A stretch of 64,000 nt of DNA. Origin: Thereva unica (Eukaryota > Arthropoda > Insecta > Diptera > Therevidae). The notes under the pieces are model-generated. The model was not told the origin of the DNA and did no database searches. It saw nothing but the letters and a program-made list of their open reading frames with translations. Of the stretch, positions 30,335-54,048 are shown piece after piece; positions within the stretch are counted from its first letter, which is position 1; each line of letters begins with the position of its first letter. The position numbers and the translations under genes are program-made. The stretch is taken from assembly GCA_949987705.1 (NCBI GenBank), contig OX465281.1, positions 170,204,516-170,268,515 of the forward strand. Reading direction: 5' to 3'.

Positions 30335-30808
30335 CTGATAAGCTCCTGGTGTACTATTTGCCTGTACCTGTAGTAACCTTCTCAACTGTTGGTTAATAAC
30401 GTTCCTAATTTTTATAATTCTTTGGACATTGAGCTCCTTTCTCTTAAAGTCTTCTTGCCCAAAACAACCTATTTTTAATTTGCTGTTACATCCCATGTTA
30501 TGTTCAGCACTCTTGACGAAAGCGGTAAAAACATTTATAATATTCAAATCTCTTGCACAAATCATATCTAACATATGATGGATTCCAAAAACGACCTCTT
30601 ACTTGGAGGCAATTTTAACTTACAAAATGTTAAATGGATATCTTGCGATAATGCCGATAACTACCTTCATGAAAACAACCTTAATTCTAGGGAATCCAGT
30701 TTTCTCAATTGCTTATTTTCATGCGGTTTGTATCAAATGAGCAGTGTGAACAATATTTTAGGAAGGCGGTTAGATCTTGTATTTTTTTCCGACTCAGACA
30801 ACATGAAT
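30335..30808 (+). pseudogene. Jockey-like LINE copy 2, 5' piece
   Basis: Homologous to the minus-strand LINE at 8820-11280: LLLGGNFNLQNVKWISCD, then SFLNCLFSCGLYQMSSVNNI and GRRLDLVFFSDS in the endonuclease. Several stops precede 30575. The frame ends abruptly after DSDNMN at 30808, where the large palindrome starts. It resumes past 35562. Confidence 0.85.
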
Positions 30809-31779
30809 CGGCAGGCCTCTGAGATTGCCTCCCCCTTAGCAACATGCAACAAATTCGAGTTTCTAGCTACACAAGGAGGCGAACGTGGTCATGGTCCGCA
30901 GCACAAGACATGCGGTGAGTTTGTCGATAAGGAAGCTAGAATTTTAGGGGGGCAAGGAACGGAACTGACAACAGAATGTTTCTCGCAACATCTTTCTTTC
31001 TGTCTCATTTTTCAAACGTTTGCCTCTAGCGCTACATTGAAGGATTTCCCTGATGCTTTGAATTTTAACTATTTCTTAGAACATTCCGTGTATTTTTTTT
31101 AATGACTGTCTGAGATTCACTATCAATTTCACTTGATTTCAAATTTTTGGTGAGAGGATTTGCGATATTTTTAAAATAGGTACTTGGTTGAGGTTTTGGT
31201 TAGGACTTTTTTTTCTGGTATTTCGGTATTGACTAACTCGATTGATTTTAGAAACGAATTTAGGTAATTATTCTTTATTTTATTTTAGCTGAATTTTCGC
31301 TATTGGCTTAAAATGTTGGGTTTTGGCTTTTGTTGTAGGTATATTGTGGGTGTAGATTTTTGGAGACATTTTTTATAAAAAATGCCACAAAGTCGCACAA
31401 CCTGAAGAGTTGCAAAGCGCATAAGTGCTTTTCATAAATGCTTGTACAATTAAATCCCCACCCACAATAAAAAATCGTACGTCTGCTCAAAACAATTCGA
31501 TCGTAATTGTTTTGGTAAAAACAAATTAAAAATAGGTTCAATACCTTCCTTGTTATTTGAAAACTCTTCAATTAATGAAAATGAGGAAAGGCTTCATGTC
31601 AAGTCAATTTTCAGGGAAAACGTATGACAGGAGGAATTCAGTCTCGGACTTGTAATTACAGGATTTATCCGTTTTAGAGTCCCCTTGTCAACAGTTAAAT
31701 ATTGAGCCGGTAAATATATATGTACATATACTGCAAACAAGATGTTTGGAAGATGAAAAAAAGTATGTATATTACAACC

Positions 31780-34573
31780 GGGTCATTCCATATCAAACCA
31801 ACCAATGGTTTGGACCTCACCACCTCCGATTGTTATAATTTTTTTATATTTGTTCTTCTGGTGGAAACTAAAAAAACAAATTTTTAAATTTTTGGCCTTC
31901 TATTGTTTTAGTTATAAATTTTCAAAAAGTCGAAAACCTTAAATTTTCAACAAATTTTGAAATCTTTAAATTGATCTAGTTCAAAAACTATTTGACATAG
32001 AAAACTGAAAGTAGCACCAGTTTCTTCTGCTTTAATTTGATATATGTTGTTACGAAATTAGCATTGGAAACACTCATCCCCTGTTACTGTACATATAATT
32101 GAGTTCTCTGTTTCCCAGCTTATGATCTATTTACCTTAGCTTGAATTGCTAATATTTTGTTAATTATTTAAAATAAATTATCTGTGATTAATTGCACCTA
32201 CGCTCACGAGTTTTTATTTTCTACAATATACAACATAGTATTATTAGAAAGAATAAAACTTTTTCCGGCATTTTGAAAATTTTGTTTTTGAAATATCTCA
32301 AAATGTTCTTTCAAATTTTTGAAAAAATTATATTTTGTACACACAATTTTAACGTACATAGAATGCCAAAATTTAGGATGGGACGACATTGGGATCATAT
32401 AGAAATAATTTTTTTAGGTTCTTGAATTGAATTGAATTGAATTAAGAAAACATTTAGTTGCGGAAGAGCTGATACCAACCGCTAATAATGTCGCCATTTA
32501 CTAATTTGGGTATGGCGAATTCAATAGAAATAAAGTCAACCCTCTAACTTGATCAAAAACTACCCCCAGGACAACCCTAATTACTAAATTTGAGGGTTTC
32601 ATACTGGCTTATGAAAACATTCCTAAAAAAATTTGTTTATAAATAGCCCTACTATAAGTATTTCTTGAGACCAAATTCAACCCTATAGGTGAAGTGGAAA
32701 CCACCCCCACACCAGCACCTAACCTTAAACTATTTTCTTTACGTCCAAAATGAAGGTTCACCACGCCAACTTTGAAGTACATACACTAGGACTTATACAA
32801 AAACAGACTTACATATCTAGGTACATACATATACAACTTTATTCATTATTATAATCTCTCTCAAGAGTGGTACATTCATTCTAACGCTTCTCTAGCATTT
32901 CTATGTCGTTCTCATAGAACGATTTGACCCCCTCATTGGAGCCATATTTCTTGCCGGCGACCATCTTTATTTTTTAATTCCAGAACAGGTAATACGAGGT
33001 GTGACAATTAAGTAATGAGACTGATTATATTGCCGCGATTGTGATAACCCTGCGACCTTGAAATTTCCTTTCCCTTCTCTCGGCATCCTTCCCCTCTCCA
33101 TTGATATATTTGCCATCGCTCTAGCTTGTTTAGTTCGCCTGCTCCGTCGTGTTGAGTAAACGTGTGTTCGTGGTGCATGGTGGTCATCTTCTATCGATTA
33201 TATAAACTTGATACTGTTCGGATAACTCAATAATGTCATTTTTTGTAGCTGTTAGAAGAAGCGCAATGTATAAATTTAAAACCGTTTTGATTTTACTGGA
33301 AAACCCCGAATTTCGAACGTTTTTAAAAACCGACAAACCCTAACATTCACCTTTTAGATAAAAGATAAATTTTGGAAACGATACGTCTGCTTTCGGGCAT
33401 CGGAAATCACCCCCACTATTAGCAGTGAGAGCTAAATTATTTAATTGAAATTTAGGTATAAAGTTAAATAATTTAGTTTTCACCCCTAGGGGTGGGGTGG
33501 TCTCTGCCTAAGGGATAGGCATGTTTTAGAAACCATGTCTTATATGAAATATATGTTCTTGTTCATTAAAAATTGGCGGTGAAACCTTTATTTTGGACAT
33601 AAAAAAATAATTTAACTTCAGGAGTGGCTGTAGGGGTGGGATCCGCGGGTCTCATAGGGTTGATTTTGGGCTCCAAATAGAGCTTATCCTAAGGGCTATT
33701 TCTAACCAAAAAATTGGCGGGGTGTTTTCATAAGCAAGTATGAACCACTCCAATTTAGTAATAAAGGTTGTAATGGGGGTAGTTTTCGATCAAGTTAAAG
33801 GGTTGACTTTATTTCTATTGAATTCGCCATACACAAATTAGTAAATGGCGACATTATTAGCGGTTGGTATCAGCTCTTCCGCAACTAAATGTTTTCTTAT
33901 ATTGCGTTCATTGAACGTTCAATTTTTCAAGAACCTAAAAAAAATTATTTCTATATGATCCCAATGTCGTCCCATCCTAAATTTTGGCATTCTATGTACG
34001 TTAAAATTGTGTGTACAAAATATAATTTTTTCAAAAATTTGAAAAAACATTTTGAGATATTTCAAAAACAAAATTTTCAAAATGCCGGAAAAAGTTTTAT
34101 TCTTTCTAATAATACTATGTTGTATATTGTAGAAAATAAAAACTCGTGAGCGTAGGTGCAATTAACCACAGATAATTTATTTTAAATAATTAACAAAATA
34201 TTAGCAATTCAAGCTAAGGTAAATATATCATAAGCTGGGAAACAGAGAACTCAATTATATGTACAGTAACAGGGGATGAGTGTTTCCAATGCTAATTTCG
34301 TAACAACATATATCAAATTAAAGCAGAAGAAACTGGTGCTACTTTCAGCTTTCTATGTCAAATAGTTTTTGAACTAGATCAATTTAAAGATTTCAAAATT
34401 TGTTGAAAATTTAAGGTTTTCGACTTTTTGAAAATTTATAACTAAAACAATAGAAGGCCAAAAATTTAAAAATTTGTTTTTTTAGTTTCCACCAGAAGAA
34501 CAAATATAAAAAAATTATAACAATCGGAGGTGGTGAGGTCCAAACCATTGGTTGGTTTGATATGGAATGACCC
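31780..34573. repeat. Inner palindrome with GGGTCATTCC termini
   Basis: Within the giant palindrome, GGGTCATTCCATATCAAACC at 31780 and its complement ending at 34573 look like true element ends: they resemble the 16261 foldback terminus (13 of the first 17 bases). If so, one foldback sits exactly at the symmetric centre of another. Confidence 0.5.
32860..33035. pseudogene. Mariner debris in palindrome loop
   Basis: On the minus strand 32865-32970 reads GKKYGSNEGVKSFYENDIEM then LEKR, stop, NECTTLERDYN, resembling the C-terminal end of mariner transposases (the LEKRW-KC-L-GDY pattern with Trp changed to stop). At 32994 a mariner-type terminus TACGAGGTGTGACAATTAAG begins on the plus strand. 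The two parts do not form one collinear element, so a rearranged relic is likely. Confidence 0.5.
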
Positions 34574-35562
34574 GGTTGTAATATACATACTTTTTTTTCA
34601 TCTTCCAAACATTGTTTGCAGTATATGTACATATATATTTACCGGCTCAATATTTAACTGTTGACAAGGGGACTCTAAAACGGATAAATCCTGTAATTAC
34701 AAGTCCGAGACTGAATTCCTTCTGTCATACGTTTTCCCTGAAAATTGACTTGGCATGAAGCCTTTCCTCATTTTCATTAATTGAAGAGTTTTCAAATAAC
34801 AAGGAAGGTATTGAACCTATTTTTAATTTGTTTTTACCAAAACAATTACGATCGAATTGTTTTGAGCAGACGTACGATTTTTTATTGTGGGTGGGGATTT
34901 AATTGTACAAGCATTTATGAAAAGCACTTATGCGCTTTGCAAGTTTGGGTGATGCAAACAACTCTTCAGGTTGTGCGACTTTGTGGCATTTTTTATAAAA
35001 AATGTCTCCAAAAATCTACACCCACAATATACCTACAACAAAAGCCAAAACCCAACATTTTAAGCCAATAGCGAAAATTCAGCTAAAATAAAATAAAGAA
35101 TAATTACCTAAATTCGTTTCTAAAATCAATCGAGTTAGTCAATACCGAAATACCAGAAAAAAAAGTCCTAACCAAAACCTCAACCAAGTACCTATTTTAA
35201 AAATATCGCAAATCCTCTCACCAAAAATTTGAAATCAAGTGAAATTGATAGTGAATCTCAGACAGTCATTAAAAAAAATACACGGAATGTTCTAAGAAAT
35301 AGTTAAAATTCAAAGCATCAGGGAAATCCTTCAATGTAGCGCTAGAGGCAAACGTTTGAAAAATGAGACAGAAAGAAAGATGTTGCGAGAAACATTCTGT
35401 TGTCAGTTCCTTTCCTTGCCCCCCTAAAATTCTAGCTTCCTTATCCACAAACTCACCGCATGTCTTGTGCTGCGGACCATGACCACGTTCGCCTCCTTGT
35501 GTAGCTAGAAACTCGAATTTGTTGCATGTTGCTAAGGGGGAGGCAATCTCAGAGGCCTGCCG

Positions 35563-37130
35563 AGGCAAAAAGCGTTCGGGTTTTTTGTTCTAGCTGTCGC
35601 ATCTTTATACGGAGTATTATGTTATCTCTGACTTTACTCTGTCCTGTATGAAACCGCATCCCGTGTACCTACTGAGCCGTTAACATCGTCCAGATCATCC
35701 CCACCGTGGTACAACAATGAGTTGAGACCTACTAAAAACCTGAAAAATAAACTCTGGAAAACCTATCTGAAGAGGAAAAACACTGCGAGTTTCTATGCAT
35801 TTCTCGATTGCTATGACCAATTTCATTCCCTCTCCGAACCTCCCTATAAGGAGTACCTCAGGAACGTCGTCTCCTGTCTTCCAACCAGATGAAGACAATT
35901 TTCGACATATCAATGCAATTCAAACGGCTCAAAACTTATCCCTGTCTATAACCAGGGAAGATATCTCGAAACATATCAATGAACTTTTTTAAGATTTTTC
36001 TTCCGGCCCTGGTGGAGTCCCTCCTGCTGTTCTAAAATCCTGTGCAGGGGTCCTTCTGTCTTCTCTACTAAGCTTATTTCAAATATCCCTAAATAAAGGG
36101 TGCTTCGCAACCTTATGCAAGAACTCTTTTATAATACTTGTAAGAACTAAATATCTAATTATAGACCAATTGCAAAGTTATCGTGTATACCAAAACTCTT
36201 CGAATCTATTTATTTATTCCGCTAACGCCCCTATCTGCAATAGACTTATCTCAACAAACCAACATCGACTTCTTGTAGCTGTTCCACTACTACTAATTTA
36301 CCGGAGTTCTCTTCACACACAGTTCGAGGCTTTATCATGACTATGTTTCCATTATTCTTAAACTACAAAAATTATGCTTTCCGGATGCCCTTGTGGTATG
36401 TTTCCAGTCGTACTTAGCCGACAGAACCTACCAACATCGAAGCGTCCTCTGGTGTCCGCAAGGTAATCATCTTGGCCCTCTCCTTTTTATTTTATCAATT
36501 GACGACATTGCTACCCTGCTAAGGCACTGTACAATTCCTATTTACGCTGATGACATTAAACTGTATCCCCACATAAGGAGGATAGAGGATTGCAAACTAC
36601 CGCAAGCAGACCTTAACATCTTCTATTCTTGGTGTTCCAACAATAGCCTAGTCCTTAATATTAGTTAATGTGAGATCATGACTTTTTTGTAGGAAACGTG
36701 GCATTATAACTTTTAGCTATAATTTTCTCGACAACAAGTTCTGCCGCGCTAGCTCTGTTATCGATCTACGGGGTTAGGCTACAAAGTAAGTTGGATTTCT
36801 CCACCCACATCAATTATACCTCCTCCAAGGGCAATTCAGTCCTGAAAGATGGACCAAGGAATTCAACAGCCCCCTCATCAATAAACACTTGTGCGTATCT
36901 TTAGTTAGGCCTTTGCTTGAATACGCCCAGGTATGGTCTCCTTACTACTGCTCCCATGTTGGTAGAATCGAATCAGGTCAAAGGAACTCGTCCGATTTGA
37001 TCCAGCCACCTCCAGTGAGATGACCCACTTGCTCTTCCGCCTTATGAGAGTAGACTTAAATTGCTCAACTTAAGCTTTCTCCATAAGTGTCGCGAGGCTG
37101 TTGACGTTATATTGATTCATCGGCTGGATT
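35563..37130 (+). pseudogene. Jockey-like LINE copy 2, 3' piece
   Basis: Resumes the LINE cut at 30808. Recognisable are the SSPPWYNNELRPTKNLKNKL region near 35690, the linker that copy 1 has lost (35780-36080), the FVNRT-free RT core with LLFILSIDDIATLL near 36490 and catalytic YADDIKLYPH near 36545, and thumb sequence to about 37130. Many frameshifts and stops. The catalytic Asp pair is still encoded. Confidence 0.8.
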
Positions 37131-38226
37131 TGAGAACCAAGATAGTTACCAAATACGCCATTAGAGGCCCATCACAAGGAAGAGTGATCTTCGCCCGCTG
37201 GGGTAAGTAACGATAAATACCATGCTACAAAACCTTCATAAAAATCGAGCTAAGGCAAACGCAAATGACTTCTTAGTGATGAAGGTGTCAGAAATTGTTC
37301 CAATCCTGATCGTGATTCATTGAAGGATGACTGAACAGAGTTAGTAGCTGTGCAGCAGAGTGCGGAATAGCAGTCAGCCTATAGAAAACTATGCTACTGC
37401 TAAACACTGTGAAAACAAATATCTCCACCTTCCATATCTTAAGATTAGATCTTTTCTCTATTCCGATTTCGATTTGGGTCCAATACAGCTCTCACTACTT
37501 AAGTGGTAGACGTACGTAAATGGAAGGGATAGCAAAGCCTGCATAACGCTCTACACCCGTAAAAAGAATTTCAGTAAAAGATAAGGTCTTTTGGATCTGC
37601 ACCATGGTACACAATTTTACGGTCCACTGGTATGGTGGCCAGCACTCAACAAGGCCCATGTGAAAATGTCCCACGAACGCCTTGATGTGCTCTTACATCT
37701 GTTCCAAAATCCAATTACCAAAAAGAAAAAGAAAACAGACAATCATGGGATGAGGACTGCCGTCGTAAGTGAAAACTTGAAACTCTGAAATTGCACTGGT
37801 TTGGTCACTTCTGTCGACCAATTACTACCTGATTTTGTTTTAATTTTTAGTTCATTTTTAAAGAAAAGCCTATTTTTTAATATTTTTAAACATTTTTATT
37901 GGAATAAAGTTCCTTAACGCGGCTTGCGGGTAGAGTAGCATGGTAGAAATCGTCACGCACCATTGCCGGTACTACGAATTTTCCGAATTCTACGGATTTT
38001 TTGATCTCAAAATTACGGATTTCGGATTTTAGATTCAAATCTACGAAATTTTATAAAGAGAAACTTCTTCCTCAAAGTTAAATAATTAACTTCGCAGTAT
38101 AGGGAAGTTATTGTAATCGGTCCGAAAATTGAAATCGTAATTTTCAAAGTATTTAATTTTTCAAGAGCAAGAGCATTTTAAGCAAAAATTTGTGAGGAAG
38201 TATACGTGTGTGTGTGTGCTCGCGCG
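37131..38226. other. Unassigned sequence beside provirus
   Basis: No recognised gene. Short plus-strand frames around 37320-37790 (for example NYATAKHCENKYLHLPYLKI and a Lys-rich stretch) may be debris of a coding sequence, but I cannot place them. A GT/CG-rich microsatellite at 38203-38226 is the target flank of the errantivirus. Confidence 0.45.
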
Positions 38227-38230
38227 AATT

Positions 38231-38527
38231 ATACTTTTCGGACTTGGATAATCAATAAAAAAAAAGACAATTCAAACCGAATATTAATTTATTACTGACT
38301 TGTTATCTATTTAAAAGCTTCTATCAAACTGAGTTTATTTCTTAAATCTAATTTCATTAAAACTAGCTTAAAAATAATTTCCCATGCTCGGATTCTGGGT
38401 ATTCCTAGTCAGCGTCTACAACGCCCGATGCGTGTTGCAATTTAACCCCTTTACCTGGATCGTGGAATCTTGGGGTTGACGACATCTTATATGGTGGAAC
38501 GTGGAGATGGGGCTAAATGACATCGGT
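38231..38527 (-). repeat. Errantivirus 3' LTR
   Basis: Begins ATACTTTTCGGACTTGG and ends GACATCGGT on the plus strand. Differs from the other LTR by scattered substitutions (CTTGG/CCCGG near the start, CTCGG/CTTGG mid-way) and one A in an A run. The env stop codon lies inside it. Confidence 0.95.
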
Positions 38528-40084
38528 GATTTCTCCCCCCTTGGTGTGAAGTGTGGGCCATAAGAATTTGGAGGTTGGTGGTCCAGAGGAAATGCAATTT
38601 TGAGGATCTGTGACTTCGATTGTTATTGAGAAATTTCGGCAAATGTAGGCGGTGATGATGATTATTGTAGCTCCTAAGATAATTATGGATGCAATGGTGT
38701 AGGTGTGTTTGACTTTGGTGTCGATTTCTAGATTTTCCAGGGCGGCTTGATTTTGCATGTTGTATTCTTTCAATTTCTGCAAGTTGAGAATTTCGATCGT
38801 GGATTCTGGGTGAAGATTTCCATGGAACATCGGAAGGATATGGACCTCGTCCCAAAAGACGTTGGTGTTGTCTCTATATATTACGTTGTTGATTGTGATC
38901 TCACAGTTTTTATAATGGAGTAGGATGGTGCCTTGAAACGTTGAGTGGTTATTTCCGCAGGTTGATGATACTGATGTTTCCGGGATGTTCATGACAAGGA
39001 CATAGTTCGGTTCTGGTTGCAGGATTTTTTCAATTTTTCCAACTTCTTTAACTGTACAGTTCGCTGCTTCGCCATTAAGTAAGGGTGCTATGCATTTTGA
39101 TTGTTCTATGGTCTCTTGATTCCTGCTTTCCTGGCAATAAAAGATACCTTCTACCCTAGGACAAACTTCATCGAAATATTGGATTCTTCTCTTATCAAGG
39201 ATAACATATGGTTTAGTGGATATTATTTTGGTTTCATTAATCGGAAGTGGAAGGATGTGGAAAAGGGAGTATTCTTCTCGGGATAGCATTGGAATGCGGC
39301 CATTGAATATTATGTTTGAGTTGTTGTGGTACGCTTGTAGGCTTAATAATTCATATATATGATCATTGGATTTAATCTCTATTGACTGATTTGTTAAAAT
39401 TTTCTCAATTAATTCGAGTTCGTTAGGATTTAAAATAAATTTGGGTATGATATTGAGTCTGGCTAGTATGATGGCTTCAGCTACGTTAGTGATATGGTTA
39501 GTAAGCAAGTCAATGTTGTAATTTATTTGAGAGAGATATTGCATGTGTAAAAGGGAAATTTCGTTAGTACGGATCTTGTTTCCGATTTGATCTTGATAGC
39601 GCTTTAAGTAGTTTGCTATTGTATCCTGTTCTTTGTTAATGTGGTTAGTAATGTTTTCGAATCTGCTTATCATTACTTTGTTAATTTGGGTCTGTTGATT
39701 TACTTCGTTTTTAATTTTTGTTTGTTCTAAGTTAAGCTTTTCTATCTCCTCGTTTAAGGATTGTGCATCATTTGCGTCCATGTTTCCCGTAATAAATTTG
39801 ATTGCAGTTCCTAATCCATTTATTAGGCCTCTTTTAACTCTTTGTTTGGGGTTCAGTGTTCCAAGTTTGTTTTCCAGCTCCCTAAGTTTTAGTTTGGTCA
39901 CTGTCATTGAGTCCTTTAGTTCGTCTATAGTGTCTAGGTTTTTAATGGAATTTGCGATTTGTGTTAAGCTGGCCTTATAGGGATCTAATCTTACTATATG
40001 TACTAGATTATAATAGTTAGTAATTGTGCGTGCTGTTCCTAATTTTAAAGGGAGTAACCCTTTATTATTACCTAAGTCGTGCAT
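38513..40084 (-). CDS. env: Errantivirus envelope glycoprotein (F-like)
   Basis: A 523-residue ORF of the errantivirus Env family, which is homologous to baculovirus F fusion proteins. A furin-type RVKR site at about residue 131 is followed by a Gly-rich fusion peptide (GLINGLGTAIKF). Next comes a long Asn/Gln/Ile-rich coiled-coil stalk (about 155-260), a Cys-rich region (about 318-395), and a C-terminal membrane anchor (about 467-487, IIILGATIIIITAYI). The frame stays open 31 bases upstream of the first ATG to a splice acceptor, so the mature start probably lies in a spliced leader. The stop lies 15 bases inside the 3' LTR. No internal break is seen. Confidence 0.93.
   Translation of the reverse strand: MHDLGNNKGLLPLKLGTARTITNYYNLVHIVRLDPYKASLTQIANSIKNLDTIDELKDSMTVTKLKLRELENKLGTLNPKQRVKRGLINGLGTAIKFITGNMDANDAQSLNEEIEKLNLEQTKIKNEVNQQTQINKVMISRFENITNHINKEQDTIANYLKRYQDQIGNKIRTNEISLLHMQYLSQINYNIDLLTNHITNVAEAIILARLNIIPKFILNPNELELIEKILTNQSIEIKSNDHIYELLSLQAYHNNSNIIFNGRIPMLSREEYSLFHILPLPINETKIISTKPYVILDKRRIQYFDEVCPRVEGIFYCQESRNQETIEQSKCIAPLLNGEAANCTVKEVGKIEKILQPEPNYVLVMNIPETSVSSTCGNNHSTFQGTILLHYKNCEITINNVIYRDNTNVFWDEVHILPMFHGNLHPESTIEILNLQKLKEYNMQNQAALENLEIDTKVKHTYTIASIIILGATIIIITAYICRNFSITIEVTDPQNCISSGPPTSKFLWPTLHTKGGEITDVI
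38528..38542 (-). promoter_or_regulatory. Polypurine tract
   Basis: The minus strand reads AAGGGGGGAGAAATC directly before the 3' LTR. It would prime plus-strand DNA synthesis. It also encodes env residues KGGEI, so the two functions overlap. Confidence 0.85.
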
Positions 40085-40115
40085 TTCTAATCTTTGCCCG
40101 AATGTTAGTGATAAT

Positions 40116-40140
40116 CTGAAAAGAAAAATAAAGTAAGGTT
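40116..40140 (-). promoter_or_regulatory. Candidate env splice acceptor
   Basis: On the minus strand a pyrimidine-rich TTTATTTTTCTTTTCAG ends at 40116 just before the env frame opens. Errantivirus env is made from a spliced subgenomic RNA, which this would produce. The acceptor lies between the Ulp1-like ORF and env. Confidence 0.7.
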
Positions 40141-40219
40141 TATTTTATCCTACGTAATTAGTCTATGGGATTCTTTATTATGCCTTTTTGTAGAGTAGGC
40201 TAAAATAATAACTTAATTG

Positions 40220-40816
40220 TTAAGATAGTAATCTTCCCTGGTATATCTCTAAAGTCATTTTCAGACGAAAATATTTCATATGTTGCCGTGAGAAAGTTAA
40301 GTATCTCACGATCTCTAGTAATGTACTCGCAAACATGCAGCTAAAAACACCACAATCATTGCCATTCATCTGTTTTGGAACGTTTTTAATGCTTTCTTTA
40401 ACGAAATCGGACGTGTCGAAATTCTCATTTCGCTTATCTAATGATTCTTCCTTAATATAATTATCCAGGGCTTCCAATACTTTTGGGTTCGGTATACCTC
40501 TTGAATAGTAATATTTAATATATTTATCTCTTAAATGAATGATTGCCATGCACCAATGTACATCGCTAATATGGACAGGTACAGGAAGGATGTCATATGA
40601 AAATATATCAACTTTACGAGTCCATCGACTCACAGAACTATAACCAAAATTCATAAGCTTTGTAGCAAAGAACGTGTTCATTGCGTAAACACGTGGAAGA
40701 CCTGAGGGACGTTGTTCTGAACGTTCGGTTAAGAGATCCATGTAGAAGTTGATAACGTTATCGTTCAACCAGTTTCCGTCATTGAGAGTTAAAATGTCTT
40801 TTCGCGTTATTTGCAT
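40220..40816 (-). CDS. Ulp1/SENP-like C48 peptidase captured by provirus
   Basis: A 198-residue ORF that spans a whole Ulp1/SENP catalytic domain. SUMO proteases of this family cleave SUMO from targets. Family features, in order: LTLNDGNWLNDNVINFYMD (10-28), NTFFATKL (47-54), SRWTRKVDIFSYDILPVPVH (63-82), catalytic His87 in VHWC, oxyanion Gln149 and catalytic Cys155 in QMNGNDCG, and the terminal QHMKYFRLKM. The catalytic Asp position is Tyr104 (KYYYSRG; codon TAT at 40505-40507, one base from GAT). The ATG is 10 bases after the pol stop, on the pol strand, and env follows. This gene is not part of standard errantiviruses. An intact frame beside a broken pol suggests later decay or relaxed constraint. 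The missing Asp probably lowers or abolishes proteolysis; substrate binding may remain. Confidence 0.92.
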   Translation of the reverse strand: MQITRKDILTLNDGNWLNDNVINFYMDLLTERSEQRPSGLPRVYAMNTFFATKLMNFGYSSVSRWTRKVDIFSYDILPVPVHISDVHWCMAIIHLRDKYIKYYYSRGIPNPKVLEALDNYIKEESLDKRNENFDTSDFVKESIKNVPKQMNGNDCGVFSCMFASTLLEIVRYLTFSRQHMKYFRLKMTLEIYQGRLLS

Positions 40817-40826
40817 ATTAAATTTT

Positions 40827-41640
40827 CTAATTAGTATCTACTTCGTCTCCGGATCCTCCATGCGTAGATTTCTTAATCAAAGCACGATGGTCTGAGGTCA
40901 ACTCCGGGAATTCGTCTGATTTCCTAGCGTTTTCTTCCTTTTTATCGTTTTCCTTATTCTCATCACCATCTAAATTGGTGATTTGCGGAATTTTCTGTTT
41001 AAATTTTTGTTTCCCTTTTATTCTTGCTTCGTGTATTTTCTTGTTATTGTCGGTTAACAGTGTATATTCGTTATTTACCTTAACTTTATGTTTGCGGAAA
41101 CGCGGTGTTAGTTTATTTCTTTTACATTATTTCCTAAATATAACTTCATCTATTTCCCTTTGCTCGGGATCCTTTCTTGATATATTTAACTTATCTATTT
41201 TATGGTTACTTAAATTTTCTAATTGTTTTTGGACTGAGGGGTATAGTTCTGACTGATACTCGTTTAGTTTTCTTAAATATTCGTGCTCATTGTTGAAGCT
41301 TACGTTTTCGTTAAATTTATACGTTCGGCCATAGAATAACTCGAACGGAGTGAATTTAGTCGCAGAATGAATTGCGTTGTTGTATGTGGTTATGCATTCT
41401 GATAGAATTTCGTTATGGTCCTAGGTCAAATTTGTTATCTTTGAATTTCTTTACTATGATTCTATAGATTTATGTCAGCGTAGAGTAGAGATGTTCTACG
41501 GGAGAGTTGCTTGTCGTTTGCTGGAACGACGTAAAATGGAGATTTATATGATATTGTCTGCAAAAGTCTTTGAATAAATTTGATGTAAATTCAGAACCCT
41601 GATCGCAGACTAATTTTTTTGGTATGCCATGGTGGCTCAT
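40827..41640 (-). pseudogene. pol: Integrase, core and C-terminal part (disrupted)
   Basis: Minus-strand segments read CDQGSEFTSNLFKDFC (second catalytic Asp) and NSPVEHLYSTL (catalytic Glu) near 41490-41610. A frame break follows near 41440. Then come TKFTPFELFYGRTYKF near 41340 and a charged C-terminus ending at TAG 40827-40829. An internal stop lies near 41127. It would insert proviral DNA. Disrupted, so inactive in this copy. Confidence 0.85.
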
Positions 41641-42053
41641 GAGATGCTATTGCGAGAAGGAAGGATGTAGGCACAAGCGAATTTGGAAAACTTGTCTATA
41701 ATCGTTAAGATTTGTTGGTTGTTAATGCTGTATATATCTGTATGTAAGATATCTAATGGTTTTATGGGCATCTCTGGTTTAAGGAATTTAACTTTTTGAG
41801 GGTGTCTGTCATATTTAAGGGTCTGACATTCTTCGCAGTTGTTGACTGTTTGGGGTATCTTGTTCCGCATAAAGGGAAAATAGTACTCTCTCTTTAAGTG
41901 AAGTAATGTCTCCTCTATACCTCTATGATTATTATTTATGTGGTAATTGTTTATTAGTTTATCTTGATCGTCATTTTCCTTGACGTCTATTAAAATTTCC
42001 TTACATCTAACTATTCGAAAGGTGTTGTTATTTGAAAAATATTTTGAATACAT
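41637..42053 (-). pseudogene. pol: Integrase N-terminal zinc-binding part
   Basis: HHRGIEETLLHLKREYYFPF supplies the His pair, CEECQTLK the Cys pair, and DILHTDIYSIN the first catalytic Asp. The frame breaks on both sides (near 42060 and 41640). Confidence 0.88.
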
Positions 42054-42123
42054 TTATTGGACTAATTTAAAGGTCTCATCCTCCGCAGCTATTGCAGTTA
42101 ACTTCCTAGGTGACAAGAATTTC

Positions 42124-42723
42124 TTAAGTACATATATCTAATACAATTTCCTGCGTAAATTCTGGTTTCCTTATTAGCCTATGTTGTTTGTTCCTAAATG
42201 GTGTTTCTAACGACATTTCTGGAGTTTCATTAGACTTCTGTAGTATTAATTGCAGATTGAATTCATTAATAGGTTTTTCGGATATTGAGATTCCATCATT
42301 CAGGTTCTCGTCCGTTGAATGGACTGTGGTACCACTGGTACCTTGCACTGACATGTTACCATCATTAATATTGACATCGATGCATTTATTTACCTGTTCA
42401 ATTTTGATCCTGCTAAGAGCATCGGCATTCATGTTTAATTTTCCCTTTTTATAGACTATCTCGTAGTCGTATTCTTCCAGCTTTAATCTCCATCTGACCA
42501 GTTTCGAATTTGGTTCTTTGAGGCTCATAAGCCAAGTCAAGGGCTTGTGGTCCGTAATAATCTTGAATCTTCGGCCAAATAGATATGGTCGGAAGTATTT
42601 CGTGGCCCAAATAATAGCTTGTAACTCCTTCTCAATAGTGGAGTAGTTTGTTTCTGAATCAGTGAGGGTTCTACAAGCGTAGCACACGGGTCTGTCACTT
42701 CCAATGGGGCCTTGTGAGAGCAC
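42124..42723 (-). pseudogene. pol: RNase H domain of pol
   Basis: Contains TNYSTIEKELQAIIWATKYF, ITDHKPLTWLMS and NADALSRI, the standard Ty3/gypsy RNase H and tether motifs. The frame is separated from RT by a short shift at about 42726, around a duplicated GCAAAATT stretch, and from integrase at about 42110. Confidence 0.9.
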
Positions 42724-42728
42724 AGCGC

Positions 42729-43890
42729 CTATTGCAAAATTGCAAAATTGCTGGCGTCTGTGGTAAGGTTGAAGGGCTTTGAAAAGTCTGGGAACTGAAG
42801 TACCGGATCATTCATGAGGATTTGTTTGCTTATGTTGAAGCTATGATGAATATATCTTTCTGTTAGTTCAACAGTTCTGCCCTTTTTTAAACACTCTGTT
42901 AAAGGCTTAACTAGCTTAGCAAAGTCTTTAACGAATTTCCTATAGTACCCCAATAATCCGAGAAAGGATTTTATTTGTTTCTGGGTACGAGGAATTGGGA
43001 ATTGCTGGATTGCACGAATTTTGTCAGGATTGGGTCTGATGCCCTCGGTGGAAACGATATGGCCAAGGAAGGCGATTTCCTTGTGAAGAAATTCGCATTT
43101 ATCCGGTTGGATCTTGAGATTGGCCTCACTAATTTTTTCAAACACTTTCCTCAGGTTCTGTATGTGCTCTTGCAAAGACGTGGAGTATATTATAATATCA
43201 TCCAAATAAACAAGGCAAACCTTGCCTTGAAGGTCCTTTAGCACGTTGTCCATAACCCTTTGAAAGGTGGACGGGGCATTTTCAAGCCCGAATGGCATAC
43301 GGACATACTCATAATGTCCCCCTTCTACCGTGAAGGCTGTTTTGGGGACATGCTTCGGGTTCATCTCTATTTGATAAAACCCGCTAGCCAAATCAAGTGT
43401 GGAGAAATACATACACTTGCCGAGTTTGTCGAGAATCTCGGTTATATTGGGAATTGGATATCGGTCAGTGATCGTTTTTTCGTTCAATTTCCGATAATCG
43501 ACTACGAGGCGCCATTTCTGCTTGCCGCTGGCGTCTTTCCTTTTGGGCACCACCCAGATATTGGAGCTCCAAGGAGAATAACTAGGGCGTATTATACCCT
43601 GTTCTAGCATACCATCGATTTGTTTCCTTAACTCCTCTTTATGGATGTAAGGATATCTATAGGACTTTGTATAGATCGGAGAATCGTCGATGGTTGGAAT
43701 GCAATGTTTCACTTGATTGGTGAAACTTAGTGGTTGGTTTTCGTCATAGAAAATGGTTTCATATTGTTTGCAATTTTGTATGATGGCTTTCTTTTCCTCT
43801 TCATTTAAGTGAGACGTGCGGATTGTTTGTATGGCATTGTTAGTTTCTGGCTGTTCGTTATACTCAAAAATTGACGTGGTTTAATTCAAT
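42729..43890 (-). pseudogene. pol: Reverse transcriptase domain of pol
   Basis: The conserved ORF (42729-43712, open to about 43885) has MLEQGIIRPSYSPWSSNIWV, WRLVVDYRKLNEKT, STLDLASGFYQIEM, MPFGLENAPSTFQRVM and catalytic YLDDII. All RT blocks are intact. Only junctions with the protease (near 43885) and RNase H (near 42726) are broken. Confidence 0.92.
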
Positions 43891-44011
43891 ATGTTCGGAA
43901 GACAAATAACGTTATACTTTCAGAGGTTGAGTATTTGCTCTTGGTCGGATTCGTTGCTGATTTCCATTGTACTGTGCCACTCAATAGCCTTATATAGTCC
44001 TTCAGAGATAA

Positions 44012-44425
44012 TCAGATTGTGTTTCTAAGAAAAATTTCTCCGTTTCTTACATCTACAGGGAGTTTAACTATTGTTTTAGAATGGGGTGGTATAATATGTT
44101 TGCCGGAACTGAAATTAGGTTTATACTTTAAGGGGATTTTTGCATTTTTAGTTATGAGGGCCTTTTCTACTAGGTCAATTTTACCACCTAGCTTGGTAAG
44201 GTCGCCAAGTCCTAACAGACCGTCGAAGTACCCATGAAATTTGAAAATAAAAAATTGTATTTCGCCGGAGTCATTAAATTCTGTAAATGTTGGAAGGGTA
44301 ACTGTTTTATCAATTTGGTATTTGCCTAATACAGTGATTATTGTTTTGGGTTCGCACTTTTCTACATCAGTGGGAAAAACAAATTCTGGGTTGATGAACG
44401 ACGATGAAGCTCCTGTATCTATCAA
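44012..44425 (-). pseudogene. pol: Aspartic protease domain of pol
   Basis: The frame opens with the catalytic IDTGASSSFINPE motif and has the downstream FDGLLGLGDL flap-type segment, typical of errantivirus proteases that mature Gag and Pol. It lies directly after gag, in a different frame. A stop before RT at 44012 separates it from the polymerase. Confidence 0.88.
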
Positions 44426-44496
44426 GAACTTCAGCGGTCGTCCGAATGGGCTTGCTATGTTGATGTAAGCAAGTGTTGTACCATGCGTATTGACGT

Positions 44497-45720
44497 CTAG
44501 GTAACCTGTTGGTCCCCCAAGGCGTCCATAGGAAAATTTTGCGCATTATTGATATCGGTATCTGGATTAAACGAATTTCCTTCATAAAAATGATCCAGCT
44601 TTTGTTGGTAGGAACTACTTCCAAGTGGAATATTATTTCCGTTTTCCTTACTTTCGTCTATATTATGGATTTCTTCCGCTATATATTTAGGGAATCCGCT
44701 AGGACGAAAAGGTTTATACGGGAAGGAATTATTCTGTGGGTTCCTGGATTGGTTGAAAGCAGTTCGTTGTCTTAAGTGAGAATTCCCAGAACTAGTATCC
44801 ATCGGTTCTGGTGGAGGTAACCTAGGTGGGTTTGTTCTTCGATCAAACACGTTCTGATTAAAAGTAGGGTTTTTGAAATTGTTATAATTCTGATTGTTTC
44901 TATAGTTATTAAAATTCTGATTCGGATTCTTGAAAAAGGGCATCGAAATTTGATTGTTAAATCCTTGTGAGGTATTAAATTGTTTATGAGGAATACGAGG
45001 TGAAAATTTAAAGTTGGTTAATTGTAAGTTTGCAGAATTGTTATGCTTTTGATTCTTATTAAATTTAGGATAATCTGAAAGTGGATTTGATTTCATATAG
45101 CAAATATTTTGCTCTTTAATGCAATAGGATAGAGCTAAGGGTAGAGAATCCGGTCTCATCGCTCGGATCATCGACCCCAAGGGTTCTCTAATCCCCGTTA
45201 GAAAAACATTCAAACACATTTCCGCGTATAGTTCCTTTTTCGCTTTGATTACGGAATTTTCTGTTTCGTGAATTAATATATTGTTATTAAGGGTAGCCTG
45301 TATTTCAACTACCTCGCTGCAGAATGTTTCTATATTTTTATTATTTTGCCTAATAGAATGTAGGTCTCTAATTAGTGATGTTTCTGTTCGTTTGTCGGAG
45401 TAGTGTAACGTTAGATTGTTCTTTATGTCCTCCCAAACAAGAGCAGTGCCGTATAAATTCAAAACTTCGTTTGCTTCCCCTTCAATTTTTTTTCGTATTG
45501 CACGCATAAGGATTAGGGAGTAGGGTGTACCGTCAATTGCTTTTAAATATTTTAAAATTTCTTCTACATTGTTGAAGAATTCGTGAAGTAGTCTAGGATT
45601 TCCATCGAATCGTGGAAGATCCTTGATCACATCAGGAATCCTTAATGAATTAAAAATATCTGTGGGCGAAATTGATGCACTTATTATTAGTAGCCATTTC
45701 ACTAATAGACTCGATTTCAC
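44497..45720 (-). CDS. gag: Errantivirus Gag
   Basis: About 407 residues in one open frame. An IPDVIKDLPRFDGNPRLLHE stretch near residue 28 and the following helical region are the errantivirus capsid signature. The C-terminus is Asn/Pro-rich (NNYRNNQNYNNFKNP) with no zinc knuckle, as in other errantiviruses. The frame has no ATG at its 5' edge: it opens after a TAA with GTG, while a well-placed ATG at 45695-45697 is in another frame. The start has therefore probably been lost by a one-base change, or the true N-terminus is elsewhere. Confidence 0.85.
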   Translation of the reverse strand: MKSSLLVKWLLIISASISPTDIFNSLRIPDVIKDLPRFDGNPRLLHEFFNNVEEILKYLKAIDGTPYSLILMRAIRKKIEGEANEVLNLYGTALVWEDIKNNLTLHYSDKRTETSLIRDLHSIRQNNKNIETFCSEVVEIQATLNNNILIHETENSVIKAKKELYAEMCLNVFLTGIREPLGSMIRAMRPDSLPLALSYCIKEQNICYMKSNPLSDYPKFNKNQKHNNSANLQLTNFKFSPRIPHKQFNTSQGFNNQISMPFFKNPNQNFNNYRNNQNYNNFKNPTFNQNVFDRRTNPPRLPPPEPMDTSSGNSHLRQRTAFNQSRNPQNNSFPYKPFRPSGFPKYIAEEIHNIDESKENGNNIPLGSSSYQQKLDHFYEGNSFNPDTDINNAQNFPMDALGDQQVT

Positions 45721-45726
45721 TTACCA
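45721..45726 (-). promoter_or_regulatory. Candidate splice donor (GTAAGT)
   Basis: The minus strand reads TTTG|GTAAGTG immediately before gag, a near-perfect insect donor. It could pair with the acceptor at 40116 to make env RNA. The resulting frame does not join cleanly to env, so use of this donor is uncertain. Confidence 0.5.
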
Positions 45727-46240
45727 AATTTATAATTGGGAACACTAATATTTAAATTAATACTTAAATCTTTTTCACTATTTATATTTTCCGGAATAGA
45801 GCTTAAACTTTTGAATAGCCTATTAATTTTTTTTTTGGATAGGGCCAAAGGGAAGGGTTCTTTGCAAATTTTTTCATATAGGGAAATAATGATCAAAGAG
45901 AAAATAATTCAATATTCGACTTACATATGTCCAATAATTATTAGGTATTTCATCGTCCTGAGTCCTTTTCAATAGGTGTCTAGAGTTGAAACTCTCCGGT
46001 CCAACGGTGTGTTGCTGCAACTGGTTTTCCGCCAGAATATGAGATGCTGATGAGGAAACCACTCAAAGCACTTCAAAAACACTCCCGAATATCTGTAATC
46101 TTTATTATTATATCGAAAAAAGTTCGGTAATCCGCCGTATTATTTTCAAAACAATAATTGTATTTTCACTTTCGGTAAACCGCCGTTAGTTAAAAATTAT
46201 TACAGATTATGTAGATATTAATGGATAGGGCCGCACACCT

Positions 46241-46258
46241 ATCCTACCGACTGCGCCA
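46241..46258 (-). promoter_or_regulatory. Primer-binding site, tRNA-Ser type
   Basis: The minus strand after the 5' LTR reads TGGCGCAGTCGGTAGGAT, the Ser-tRNA-complementary site used by gypsy, 17.6 and 297. It confirms element orientation and family. Confidence 0.9.
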
Positions 46259-46261
46259 ATT

Positions 46262-46560
46262 ATACTTTTCGGACCCGGATAATCAATAAAAAAAAAAAGA
46301 CAATTCAAACCGAATATTAATTTATTACTGACTTGTTATCTATTTAAGAGCTTCTATCAAACTGAATTTAATTCTTAAATCTAATTTCATTAAAACTAGC
46401 TTAACAATAATTTCCCATGCTTGGATTCTGGGTATTCCTAGTCAGCGTCTACAACGCCGGATGCGTGTTGCAATTTAACCCCTTTACCTGAATCGTGGAA
46501 TCTTGGGGTTGACGACATCTTATATGGTGGAACGTGGAGATGGGGCTAAATGACATCGGT
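46262..46560 (-). repeat. Errantivirus 5' LTR
   Basis: Matches 38231-38527 with scattered differences. It should carry the promoter for the genomic RNA. No clear TATA box was pinned down. Confidence 0.94.
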
Positions 46561-46564
46561 AATT

Positions 46565-47620
46565 CGCGCGTGTGTGTGCGTGTGATTGTGCGTAAGTATG
46601 TGGTCATATTTTCCTGCACGATATCGCACGAACCAAAAAAGATAACGACTTCGATTAGGTGTCGTTCGAAGCGTATTAACGGAAATGTGATCAGAAAAGA
46701 TTTTTATAAAATTTGATCGAGCCGTTTTGTGGTTTAGGCGGCATAAGTGATTTGTGTACCTGCACGATATCGCCCGAGCCACAAAAGATATTAAACTAAA
46801 AAATACACAAAAGATATTAAACCAAAAACTATATCGACTTCTTTGAGATGCCGAAAGAAGAATATTAACGAAAAAATACCCTGAAAAAAATTTCATAACA
46901 TTCGGTCATGCCTTTTTTTGTTTAATTGGAAAAACTTCAGATAAGTGTCAGAACGATCTTAAATTGATAAGTTTTGCTAACATCTAATAACTCCGCCTTC
47001 GTCTGGTCGCAAGCGCAGGGTGTGAATGGGGGAGGGTCGTCAATCTGCCGAATTGACCAGTAAAACTAGGCAAGAAACCGCATGAAAAAAAGCGGCACCG
47101 ACAGCAGCGTATCCGTTGCGGGGACCGCCCCGCTCGGACCGCCAGCTAACGGATCAAAGAAGAAAGAGAAGAAGCTAATATCTAATAAACTCGATGGAAT
47201 GAGACCTACTTTAAACGAAGTGATGTTTTTTGGGTTCTGCACAGCCATAGCTTTTCAACAAAACATTACTTGTCAAAATCCGACGATTTTTGGGCAATTT
47301 CTTGCAAATCAAGAAGAAGATAACATAAATGTCGATTGTCTATGTATATGCCACATTTTAAGATACCCACATACATACACTTTTTAAGATACATACATAG
47401 GTACATACATTTTCGAAGGACCGAAAACCTCCGGCTAATTCCTGCAGGAGGGGAAGTGAAAATTTCCCCGCTTTTTCTTGCATGAGAAAGTAAAGAAACA
47501 CAAATTGGGCGAATTTTTGCTTCCGCGGTATCCCACATTCGAGTTGTGGAACAGAGCTACAGTTTCAGGAAATTGCGGTTAATCCCGGAATTGCCAGTAG
47601 TTACAGAAAATATTGATCTT
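46565..47620. other. Unassigned region with a tandem duplication
   Basis: The phrase CCTGCACGATATCGC occurs at about 46611 and 46759, each followed by a GAACC/GAGCCACAAAAGATA-like segment, giving a diverged 148-bp duplication. The phrase GAGCCGTTTTGTGGTTTAGG near 46726 resembles RTE/SINE-type tails. A 101-codon frame at 47082-47387 starts with a Lys/Ser/Pro-rich stretch but has no known domain. Confidence 0.5.
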
Positions 47621-49894: not shown

Positions 49895-51716
49895 CAGTAA
49901 TGTCTAGCTAATCCGGATCAATTTTGGGCCGCCTTTGTCCGGATTAGCGAATTTTCCGGACTGGCAAGTACATACGGTAAAAAGTAAAAAATACATAGGA
50001 ATTATCTTTGTGACAATCATTTCATTGTCACCATAAACATTTTATTATATTTTATCATTTTTACAAGAATTTAAAAAAATCCGTTATACTCGTAGTTGTT
50101 TGTCTTTTTTTGGAATTTACAACAGCTCGTTGCGCTTTTTCTTTCAATTCCTACAGAACCATCATCTGGTTGATAGAAACGTTGTTTTGCGAGCTCCACT
50201 CGATGACAGTTCCAATGGCTTCAACAGCAGCTTCATTTCTAACTCGCATAGGATTTTCGTCTCCTACATTCAATCCGTAAAATTCCTCATGTTCGTCTTC
50301 GGTTTCTATGGCCTCCTCTTCAATGATATCATCGATGTTCGTCTCTTCCACCCAATCGTTAACTTCGTCCGCCGTATAAGTCGATTCGCTTTGCATAGCT
50401 AATCTTAAATTTTCGCTAATTTCCTCAGCATCGCGTATTTGACGGATCAATTCATTTAACGGGATTAAATCCTCACCAGACCAATCTTCATTTTCCTCCT
50501 CAAACAAACTTTTCCAACACGACTTGATCATGCTTTGTTTCAAATTTCTCCAAGCACTTGCCAGAAAGTACAGGGCGTCCTTCAACGTCAGTGCTTTCAT
50601 TAACTTATCAACATCCTTCTCTCTCGAGCATAGAATGTGAGAAATCAAGTTACACGGATAATGTTCTGATCAAGTGGCTGTATCAATGCTGTGCAGTTCG
50701 TTGGCAAAAACATTGCTCAAATCTGCCCGTCTGCGGTCTGAGATCATCAACAGGTGGATGACAAGGTGCATTATCTAAGAGAAGAAGTGCTTTGTGAGGT
50801 TTGCCGATGCTTTCTAAAAAATCCCGGACCTGCGAAACGAAAGACTGAAAAAACCATGTTCTGAAGATTTCGGATGTCATCCAAGCTTTGGAACTCGACC
50901 GGTATTCTACCGGAAGTGCAACGCTTCGGAACGCTCGAGGATTCCTCGATTTACCAATCACGAGTAACCTCAACTGATGGTCACCTGATGCCTTAGTGCA
51001 GCCCAAAAATGTCAAACGCTGTAAGTGTGCTTTACGACCTGGGGCTGTTTTTTCGTGCGACGTTACAAGTGTCTTGTTCGGCAACAACTTCCAAAAAAGT
51101 CCGCTCTCATCCGCATTGTACACCTGACATGGTTCCAAGTTCATCTCACGAATTTTTTCAATAAATTTTGCTTGAAATGGTGCTACACTTGTGTCTTTGT
51201 TGGACAATTTTTCGCCACAGATTTTTAATCCTCTAATACCAAAACGTTTCCGGAATTACAAATTCCAAACCCTGCTGGCGTGGAATTCTTTACCTTCGCC
51301 ATAAACTTTTCGCAGAATTTTTTGGGCTTGGATCTGCAACATTTCCTCCGATATGGCCACATGTCTCTCTCGTTGTTTGATAAGCCACCCGTATAGACGT
51401 CTATCCAAGTCCGGAAATTCTCCCTTCTTCATTATTTTTCTTTTATTGACTCCCTAGACAGAAACATAACTAAAAATTTTTGAAATCAGCCTAACGAAGC
51501 CATCCATGATGCATGATGAAAGACTACTTACTCCAAAATTTGATTTCTTTTCTTTTTTATATCGCCGACTGTCGATTTTCCAATTCCAAATTCTGTTGCT
51601 ATATTTTTTAAGGACTTTCCACTGCCAATCTTTTTTAAAATTGCAACTTTTTCCATTATTGACAAAGTTTTATGTTTCCTTTTTATTTTCAAAAGATCAC
51701 AACACCACAAATTCTA
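49895..51716 (-). mobile_element. Pogo/Tigger-like transposon, truncated
   Basis: The left terminus CAGTAATGTCTAGCTAATCC at 49895 follows a TA and contains inverted TCCGGATTAG copies, like Tigger ends. The transposase lies on the minus strand. No matching right terminus is seen before the errantivirus LTR at 51790, so this end is truncated or lies beyond that insertion. Confidence 0.8.
50151..51710 (-). pseudogene. Pogo/Jerky-type transposase, frameshifted
   Basis: Three minus-strand pieces: 51528-51710 with a CENP-B-type helix-turn-helix (KRKHKTLSIMEKVAILKKIG, then KSLKNIATEFGIGKSTVGDI); 50683-51207 with the DDE core (VYNADESGLFWKLLPNKT, then LLLLDNAPCHPP); and 50151-50648, the acidic C-terminus. 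Frames break near 51220-51520 and at 50650-50720, where ALIQPLDQNIIRV (third catalytic Asp) is in a different frame. It would cut and paste DNA at TA sites if intact. Confidence 0.9.
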
Positions 51717-52133: not shown

Positions 52134-52613
52134 TCACATGTTGATGCTAATGGGCTGAAGATCCTGGATATTGGGGTTTGTTGCCAGTGGAATGGTGGGT
52201 TGAATGATTTTAAGCTTTGACTTTGTTCTTAACCTAAGTATTATAAAAATGGCAAATATTAATAAAAGAACTATAAAACAAATATTTGTTGAAAAGGATA
52301 TGATGTTGCCGGTGGATAATTTTATCAGCTGCTTCCTATTTTTTAGGTGTAGGTCGTGCAAGTACTCTATATCAAGTTTTAAATTCCCTTCTGCTGGATG
52401 AGTTTGTAGTACAGGTGGCAAGACTTGGAACGTTTTTATTTCCTTATTATTGTATTGCTTTTCCTTAATTTTGATCGTTTCGTTGATGAACTGTACAATG
52501 AAAGTCCCATTTAAATGTCTGGTTGAGTTATTCACAAAAAGCTCTCCTTCAAAGTTATCCAGGAATATCGTATCTTCGTTGATTATTTCAATGTTTTCAT
52601 TTTTAATAAATTT
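52134..52613 (-). pseudogene. env: Second errantivirus env, C-terminal piece
   Basis: About 160 residues of an F-like Env end: a Cys pair, a stalk with KNRKQLIKLSTGN, a membrane anchor (NICFIVLLLIFAIFIILRLR) and a Pro-rich tail. It is cut at its N-terminal side by the gypsy insertion at 52619 and continues at 59564. Distinct in sequence from the env at 38513-40084. Confidence 0.85.
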
Positions 52614-52618
52614 ATAGT

Positions 52619-52740
52619 TGTAGTATCGGCAACACTGAGTGATGCCAACACAAAATGTCAAATGTAAGAAGAAGTGAGAATAAAGACAGTTTAGAGTAAA
52701 CCGTAGCAGCGATAACGCGTATGTTTATTAGTTCTCCACA
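52619..52740 (+). repeat. Gypsy 5' LTR
   Basis: Very short LTR (122 bp). It differs from the 3' LTR at about three positions (GAGTGATGCCAAC/AAGTGATGCCGAC, GAGAATAAAG/GAAAATAAAG). A primer-binding-site-like TTGGCGACAGAGG follows directly at 52742. Confidence 0.94.
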
Positions 52741-53309: not shown

Positions 53310-53450
53310 GGAGAACAAAGAAATTTTGTTTGGTGCTTTTAGTAGTAATGATATTACTAAAAGTGCTAAAAACGAAAAGTGGAAGGAAATCTTTCAGTTA
53401 GCGTCCAGCATAAATTTAATTCCTAAAAACAAGGGATGGAATTATGTGAG
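53310..53450 (+). pseudogene. Harbinger Myb/SANT-like protein, N-terminal part
   Basis: Plus-strand codons ENKEILFGAFSSNDITKSAK then EKWKEIFQLASSIN resemble the start of the Myb/SANT-like accessory protein that accompanies Harbinger transposases in DNA binding. An ATG at 53253 may start it through a small intron-like GTAAGT. The frame runs into reversed transposase sequence after about 53450, so most of the protein is gone. Confidence 0.65.
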
Positions 53451-54048
53451 GGACGTATTGTGCATCGTGTACGCTCCCTGGCCAGTTAGCGCTGGCGTAG
53501 TAGAATTGTAAATCAGGACCGCAAACAGCCATACAATTTAGTGAATGATTTCCATGACGGTCAACAAAAGCTACTTCATCTTGTGGTGGTGCGTCTATAT
53601 TTATTAAAATTCCATCTATTGCGCCACATATTTGTGGTAAACCACCTTTTTCGTAAAATTCTTGAACCACAGCATCTACATTAGATGGCCAACGAACTTG
53701 TTCTTGAAATTCCACTTCATTTATAGCTGCTGTTACTTCGTGCACGCACCTGCAGACGGTTGCTTTATGAATACCACGCATATCTGCTACGCTATGATAT
53801 TGTGCACCCGTTCCGAACCAGTGTAGTGCTATTAGCAATTTCTGTCTTACAGAAAGTGATTGGCTTCTATTAGTCACTGAGTTCAATTTATTATATAAAC
53901 TATGTTCAAATTTTTCGACCACTGCCTCTGGCACTCGGAATTTTTCTTTAAAGTTATTATCACTTACTTCAAAATTTATTCTCTTTTTATATACACGAAT
54001 GTTTTCCCACTCGTCTTCACTTTCATTACTATCATCCCAAATAAACAT
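53416..54048 (-). pseudogene. PIF/Harbinger transposase, C-truncated
   Basis: 210 residues of a HARBI1-type transposase. The N-terminal helix-turn-helix region has LSVRQKLLIALHWFGTGAQY and GIHKATVCRCVHEV. The DDE domain has GAIDGILINI (first Asp), FVDRHGNHSLNCMAVCG and PGSVHDA (second Asp). The third acidic residue and the C-terminus are missing because of the internal deletion. Confidence 0.88.

Follow-up and report, generated by a model that had tools for sequence, protein, structure and literature searches.

Errantivirus-type elements of Thereva unica carry a SENP1/Ulp1-type domain, very probably taken from the host, at the C-terminus of Pol

The window, by which we mean the whole 64-kb stretch of Thereva unica DNA analysed here, contains a provirus that reads on the minus strand and extends from position 38227 to 46564. 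Its features, in the order in which the element reads, are:

46565..46568, no strand: target site duplication CGCG, 5' side (by eye)
46258..46564, minus strand: 5' LTR (LTR pair comparison, boundaries set by eye)
46242..46258, minus strand: primer binding site TGGCGCAGTCGGTAGGA, which we take to be of the tRNA-Ser type (sequence inspection)
44497..45720, minus strand: gag ORF (Pfam Retrotrans_gag, 1.4e-4, 22.5 bits, below the curated cut-off of 24.1)
41127..44425, minus strand: pol, broken into several pieces; RT, RNase H and integrase identified (Pfam; tblastn with related Pol)
40827..41126, minus strand: end of integrase, linker and first SENP part (DEFPELT..GDEV, the last ~80 bases), in the pol frame
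40220..40816, minus strand: main part of a SENP1/Ulp1-type C48 domain (Pfam, SENP1 structure sequences, alignment)
40116..40132, minus strand: 3' splice-acceptor-like tract of env, TTTATTTTTCTTTTCAG (read in the sequence)
38513..40084, minus strand: env of Baculo_F type, open over 523 codons (ORF list, Pfam)
38227..38531, minus strand: 3' LTR (LTR pair comparison)
38223..38226, no strand: target site duplication CGCG, 3' side (by eye)

The two LTRs are 95.8% identical over 312 aligned nt, and 97% identical over a 275-nt core. With its LTR pair and short target duplication, its gag (at the sub-cut-off Pfam match given above), its pol with RT, RNase H and integrase and its Baculo_F env, the provirus resembles the errantiviruses, insect endogenous retroviruses of the gypsy group of Metaviridae, also in the 4-bp length of the duplication and in the acceptor-like tract at the start of env. 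A protease was not identified by Pfam in its pol. The sequence-only reading of this locus had given AATT as the target duplication; AATT is the terminus of the LTR, and the duplicated bases are CGCG. Its placing of the ORF at 40220-40816 holds, as the ORF lies on the pol strand with integrase to one side and the Baculo_F env to the other, in a provirus with two LTRs. Elsewhere in the window, positions 30808-35563 form a nested near-perfect inverted repeat, whose four pairs of arms (208-660 nt long and 90-100% complementary) flank a centre of about 1 kb. A further Pol of LTR type lies on the plus strand at 55114-59367; it has RT, RNase H and an integrase zinc domain (Pfam on 56876-58495). Pieces of a second env (Pfam Gypsy) and two DDE transposases (DDE_1, DDE_Tnp_4) were found at 52134-52661, 50683-51207 and 53416-54048.

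In sequence profile and catalytic fold the ORF at 40220-40816 is a C48 domain, as had been proposed: it matches nearly the whole PF02902 profile (E 6.7e-42) and, by sequence, solved SENP1 structures over its residues 2-197 (3.7e-61), with PDB sequence scores decreasing from SENP1 over SENP2 and SENP5/3 to SENP7. The description as a complete catalytic domain stands in part. His, Gln and Cys are retained, but the catalytic Asp is Tyr in the window copy, at a position where 119 of 121 aligned rows (the window copy being one of the 121) have Asp, and the His-Asp-Cys triad is thus broken here. The gap of 10 bases between the pol stop and the ORF start is likewise real, but the stop falls within SENP homology. 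The first part of this homology (DEFPELT...GDEV) lies 5' of the ATG of the ORF and is read in the pol frame, the remainder in another, which places the pol stop inside the domain. The stretch at 40827-41126, which gives no Pfam match when searched alone, is in one frame with C48 in another copy of the element, L029. Between the window C48 and four copies of the same subfamily (subfamily C, defined below; L029, L023, L009 and L032) 65-70% of differences are non-synonymous, where 80% are expected without selection (p 0.02-0.17), as would be the case for mostly relaxed change. The window copy is probably a decayed, inactive example of the family.

A Pfam search for C48 in the same genome (910 Mb) yielded 70 rows; in 10 of them the match is free of stops and falls in a frame of 1440 codons or more (the search's own codon count). 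We examined 50 rows, namely the window and 49 rows in 48 fetched loci; as the 20 rows left out are nearly all weaker fragments, the sample leans to better copies. The 48 loci comprise the host gene (L008), two other C48 sequences (L047 and L048) to which the proviral C48 shows little or no match, and 45 proviral loci. In the 3.5 kb fetched per locus (5.1 kb for L017), all 45 carry integrase and/or env near C48 and in the same orientation as it; both are present in 37 loci, integrase only in 2 and env only in 6. The sequence-only reading had argued that the domain belongs to the element's gene order and is no random later insertion, and had suggested looking for C48 matches flanked by integrase and env; with 45 further proviral loci in the element's own genome, 37 of them so flanked, both points are borne out. 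By identity to L001 the loci were assigned by eye to four groups, A (8 loci), B (21), C (5 plus the window) and D (11). In 18 of the 45 (A 4, B 8, C 1, D 5) the frame is open from integrase to the C48 stop over all fetched upstream codons, so that C48 is the C-terminal part of Pol; in L029, a C copy, integrase, linker and C48 are read in one frame. The separate gene between pol and env that had been described at the outset is hence rejected for the family.

LTR pairs were present in 8 of the 10 copies looked at, none being found for L029 and L024. LTR identity is 98.8-99.7% in six copies of A, B and D, which indicates that these groups moved recently, and 95.8 and 96.5% in two C copies. The target duplication, determined by eye in copies whose ends were fetched (L049-L056, L063-L066), reads CGCG in each of the seven A-C copies for which a pair was found, a strict-looking target preference, and AGCT in the one D copy. 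An acceptor-like tract lies 3' of the C48 stop in each of the five C48-bearing copies printed (L001, L029, L006, L018 and L038). Since the cassette sits between the end of integrase and this acceptor, splicing of env should still be possible in its presence.

Relatives without the domain are frequent, both in this genome and among public sequences. With an integrase query we scored 91 of 12282 candidates in the genome, and a C48 row follows within 1 kb downstream in 19 and within 4 kb in 21 of them, leaving 70 without a recorded C48. Nine copies were fetched as C48-free candidates. Two of these, L073 and L076, at two sites, belong to subfamily B: L073 matches the C48-bearing L038 at 98.5% identity along 1293 nt of integrase and at 98.0% along 395 nt at the start of env, with 37 nt in the place of 813 nt in L038, and L076 has the identical junction (98.4% to L073 over 642 nt, 97.1% to L038 over 375 nt). 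The cassette has therefore also been lost, or was gained late, within B, and the persistence of relatives without C48, including these two at 97-98% identity to L038, marks the domain as dispensable. In all seven C48-free copies whose junction was printed an acceptor-like CAG stands shortly before env, and in the five that were translated it lies inside the last pol codons. None of the best 120 of 132 public Pol relatives, up to 67% identical in integrase, carries the extra C-terminal C48 domain that sets the Thereva Pol apart from known errantiviruses, and a blastp of C48 against 105 of these relatives gave no match. Conversely, the best 120 of 670 public C48 proteins all contain PF02902 and none contains PF00078 or PF00665, and one scan of IMG/VR gave no relative confirmed by tblastn. 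Masking of repeats in annotated genomes could hide public Pol-C48 fusions.

His, Asp, Gln and Cys are all kept in 35 of the 37 open proviral C48 domains, the exceptions being the window copy (Tyr) and one B copy (Asn), so the family as a whole has the catalytic set that the window copy lacks. Within subfamily B dN/dS is 0.10-0.17; a ratio below 1 among proviral copies is what the sequence-only reading had suggested looking for. Tested against a neutral expectation of 80% non-synonymous change among three B copies, the counts of non-synonymous to synonymous differences are 40.5:64.5 for L006-L018 (p 1e-20), 33.5:53.5 for L006-L038 (p 5e-17) and 49:52 for L018-L038 (p 1e-12). Between representatives of A, B and C dN/dS is 0.06-0.23, with dS often near saturation; these between-group values could partly reflect constraint on the host gene if there were multiple captures, which the within-B counts alone avoid. 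The near-identical C pairs L029-L023 and L029-L032, the youngest tested, show no departure from neutrality, as expected of young or dead copies. Judged by these substitution patterns, the C48 cassette is maintained by selection as what appears to be a catalytically complete SUMO protease in many copies.

L008 is the host's own SENP1 gene: it has several exons, which line up in order with SENP1 proteins of flies in public databases, and the 16 kb searched contain no match to integrase. An intron follows its GDE motif and appears as an insert of 34 codons in the alignment. Across this point 42 of the 45 proviral loci align without an insert (L011, L026 and L044 give no alignment there), and the absence of the host intron from the loci that can be read points to capture from spliced RNA. 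Identity to the host domain is 75-80% for six A-C representatives and 64% for D. We built a maximum likelihood C48 tree of 72 rows (24 fetched proviral copies, the window, the host gene and 46 database proteins; bootstrap not fully settled), in which A, B and C form one clade (100/93) that is sister to the host gene (100/96). This comparison with host SENP genes, likewise proposed earlier, thus has three subfamilies adjoining the host gene. The PDB scores of the window ORF and the place of A-C in the tree both favour the SENP1 branch over other SENPs; D, with its more divergent C48, falls elsewhere on a long branch and its placement is unsure. The proviral domain shares boundaries and triad with the catalytic domain of host SENP1/Ulp1 and differs from the host protein in having no N-terminal targeting region and no intron and in being fused to integrase. 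Flanks, tree, intron loss and purifying selection together strongly support the central proposal of the sequence-only reading, that errantivirus-type elements captured a SENP/Ulp1 domain from the host. Very probably, an errantivirus-type element took the catalytic half of host SENP1/Ulp1 from spliced mRNA, and the domain has since been kept by selection at the C-terminus of Pol in A/B/C and in D.

Extra domains at this end of Pol are known from chromoviruses, Gypsy elements with a C-terminal chromodomain (available text of PMC12440569). The proviral copies carry a SUMO-protease-type enzyme in place of it, and no chromodomain was found in the L001 integrase-C48 frame at E 1e-3, which separates them from chromoviruses; an enzyme is thereby added to the extra domains at the Pol C-terminus. 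That C48 peptidases travel as cargo of DNA transposons, as the sequence-only reading had noted, is documented for Cryptons, mobile elements that also carry a Ulp1-type peptidase; these are tyrosine-recombinase DNA transposons, and the peptidase is described as an additional protein in some CryptonS (PMC3212892, in the sections available). The present element is neither a Crypton nor another C48-carrying DNA transposon, as LTRs, RT and integrase surround the domain. Among the matches listed for open-licence PMC articles, and within the text available there, a SUMO protease in an LTR element is unreported; by word search of their available text, two recent papers on insect endogenous retroviruses (PMC13172572, PMC12992720) mention neither SUMO nor Ulp1, and in the accessible part of PMC11835246 Ulp1 is a laboratory reagent only.

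Under the capture model, the acquired part would begin at the conserved EFPELT motif of host SENP1/Ulp1 and end at the host gene's native stop. It would have come to lie in frame at the Pol C-terminus, with integrase directly before it and the env splice acceptor a short way downstream, in three related subfamilies at least (A, B and C), probably partly by recombination, and in the distant D. Unspliced RNA would then give Pol-integrase-SENP, and splicing of env would remove the cassette. The SENP domain would ride with integrase in the particle and the pre-integration complex and may strip SUMO from nearby proteins, be they host chromatin silencing factors or viral Gag and Pol. The intactness of the domain under selection suggests that the elements use it against or within the host SUMO system; most likely, the domain would serve as a deSUMOylase that arrives with Pol and acts either on chromatin silencing by the host or on viral proteins. 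Should the enzyme be active, the eraser of the SUMO pathway, on which piRNA-guided silencing draws, would have passed into the service of an animal retroelement and would be delivered together with integrase. Because copies that are 97-98% identical with and without the cassette coexist, the question is directly testable in one genome.

Action on host chromatin silencing, in line with the effect on SUMO-dependent silencing that the sequence-only reading had raised, is quite possible, if short of probable. It would fit the retained catalytic residues and the selection on them, the parallel with the chromodomain at the same end of Pol (PMC12440569, as far as its text is available), and the part that the SUMO ligase Su(var)2-10 takes in piRNA-guided silencing (PMC7272611, available passages). 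A conference abstract, in the portion available, also has HIV-1 Tat recruiting SENP3 to its promoter (PMC5046194). Against a host-directed role stand the persistence of copies without C48 and the finding that in yeast Ulp1 tethered at the pore restricts, and does not help, Ty1 (PMC8585004, available text), so that the sign of a deSUMOylase effect cannot be assumed.

The enzyme may instead take SUMO off the element's own Gag, integrase or Env and so aid assembly, stability or nuclear entry, a role that we hold to be somewhat unlikely taken by itself. The fusion to Pol does put the domain beside Gag and integrase, but a virus could achieve the same by losing its SUMO sites. Action on viral Gag or integrase nevertheless appears about as plausible as action on host silencing.

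A fuller scenario combines at least two acquisitions of the host SENP1 domain at the same Pol end (one in A/B/C, one in D) with a counter-defence that erases SUMO-dependent silencing and with a mobile, exchanged cassette; taken with all its parts it is unlikely. AU tests gave p 0.142 for one clade of A, B, C and D, p 0.105 for D with the host and p 0.422 for A-D plus the host, and a single capture for all four groups is by the first two of these neither shown nor rejected. Separate captures from the host by A, B and C, as opposed to one capture with exchange, would find some support in integrase trees, where A and C lie apart from B with C48-free elements between. A single integrase clade of A, B and C is, however, not rejected when L073 is omitted (p 0.31); with L073 it is rejected, because this copy without C48 falls inside B. 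The one clade that proviral A, B and C domains form in the C48 tree, without the host, argues against separate captures, as does the position of the cassette in the printed copies, where the same integrase end precedes it and the env acceptor lies beyond it. Third-position divergence points the same way: in all six A/C-B pairs it is lower for C48 (0.29-0.41) than for integrase (0.50-0.55), with p from 0.04 to 9e-6 in tests that are not independent as pairs share copies. C48 is also the less diverged in L018-L038 (p 0.008), and the difference is insignificant for A-C (p 0.62), L006-L038 (p 0.83) and L006-L018 (p 0.12). The lower divergence of C48 fits recombination of the cassette between lineages, which it does not prove, and separate captures by A, B and C appear distinctly improbable.

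A functionless host SENP1 retrocopy, or a later insertion into one provirus, would fit the loss of the intron and the decayed look of the window copy, but is scarcely credible given 70 C48 rows, purifying selection and another 45 proviral loci across four subfamilies (in 37 the domain lies between integrase and env, and 18 are in frame with integrase). The case that the sequence-only reading had named as fatal to its proposal, one host retrocopy inserted with a target duplication of its own, is excluded.

Rearrangements around the cassette were also seen. In one B provirus (L017:1360-5033) a segment with C48 and the start of env is present twice, 1525 bp apart. In the D copies L024, L027, L031 and L036 the first SENP part (ITESEKL..INK) is partly tandem-repeated in the linker before C48.
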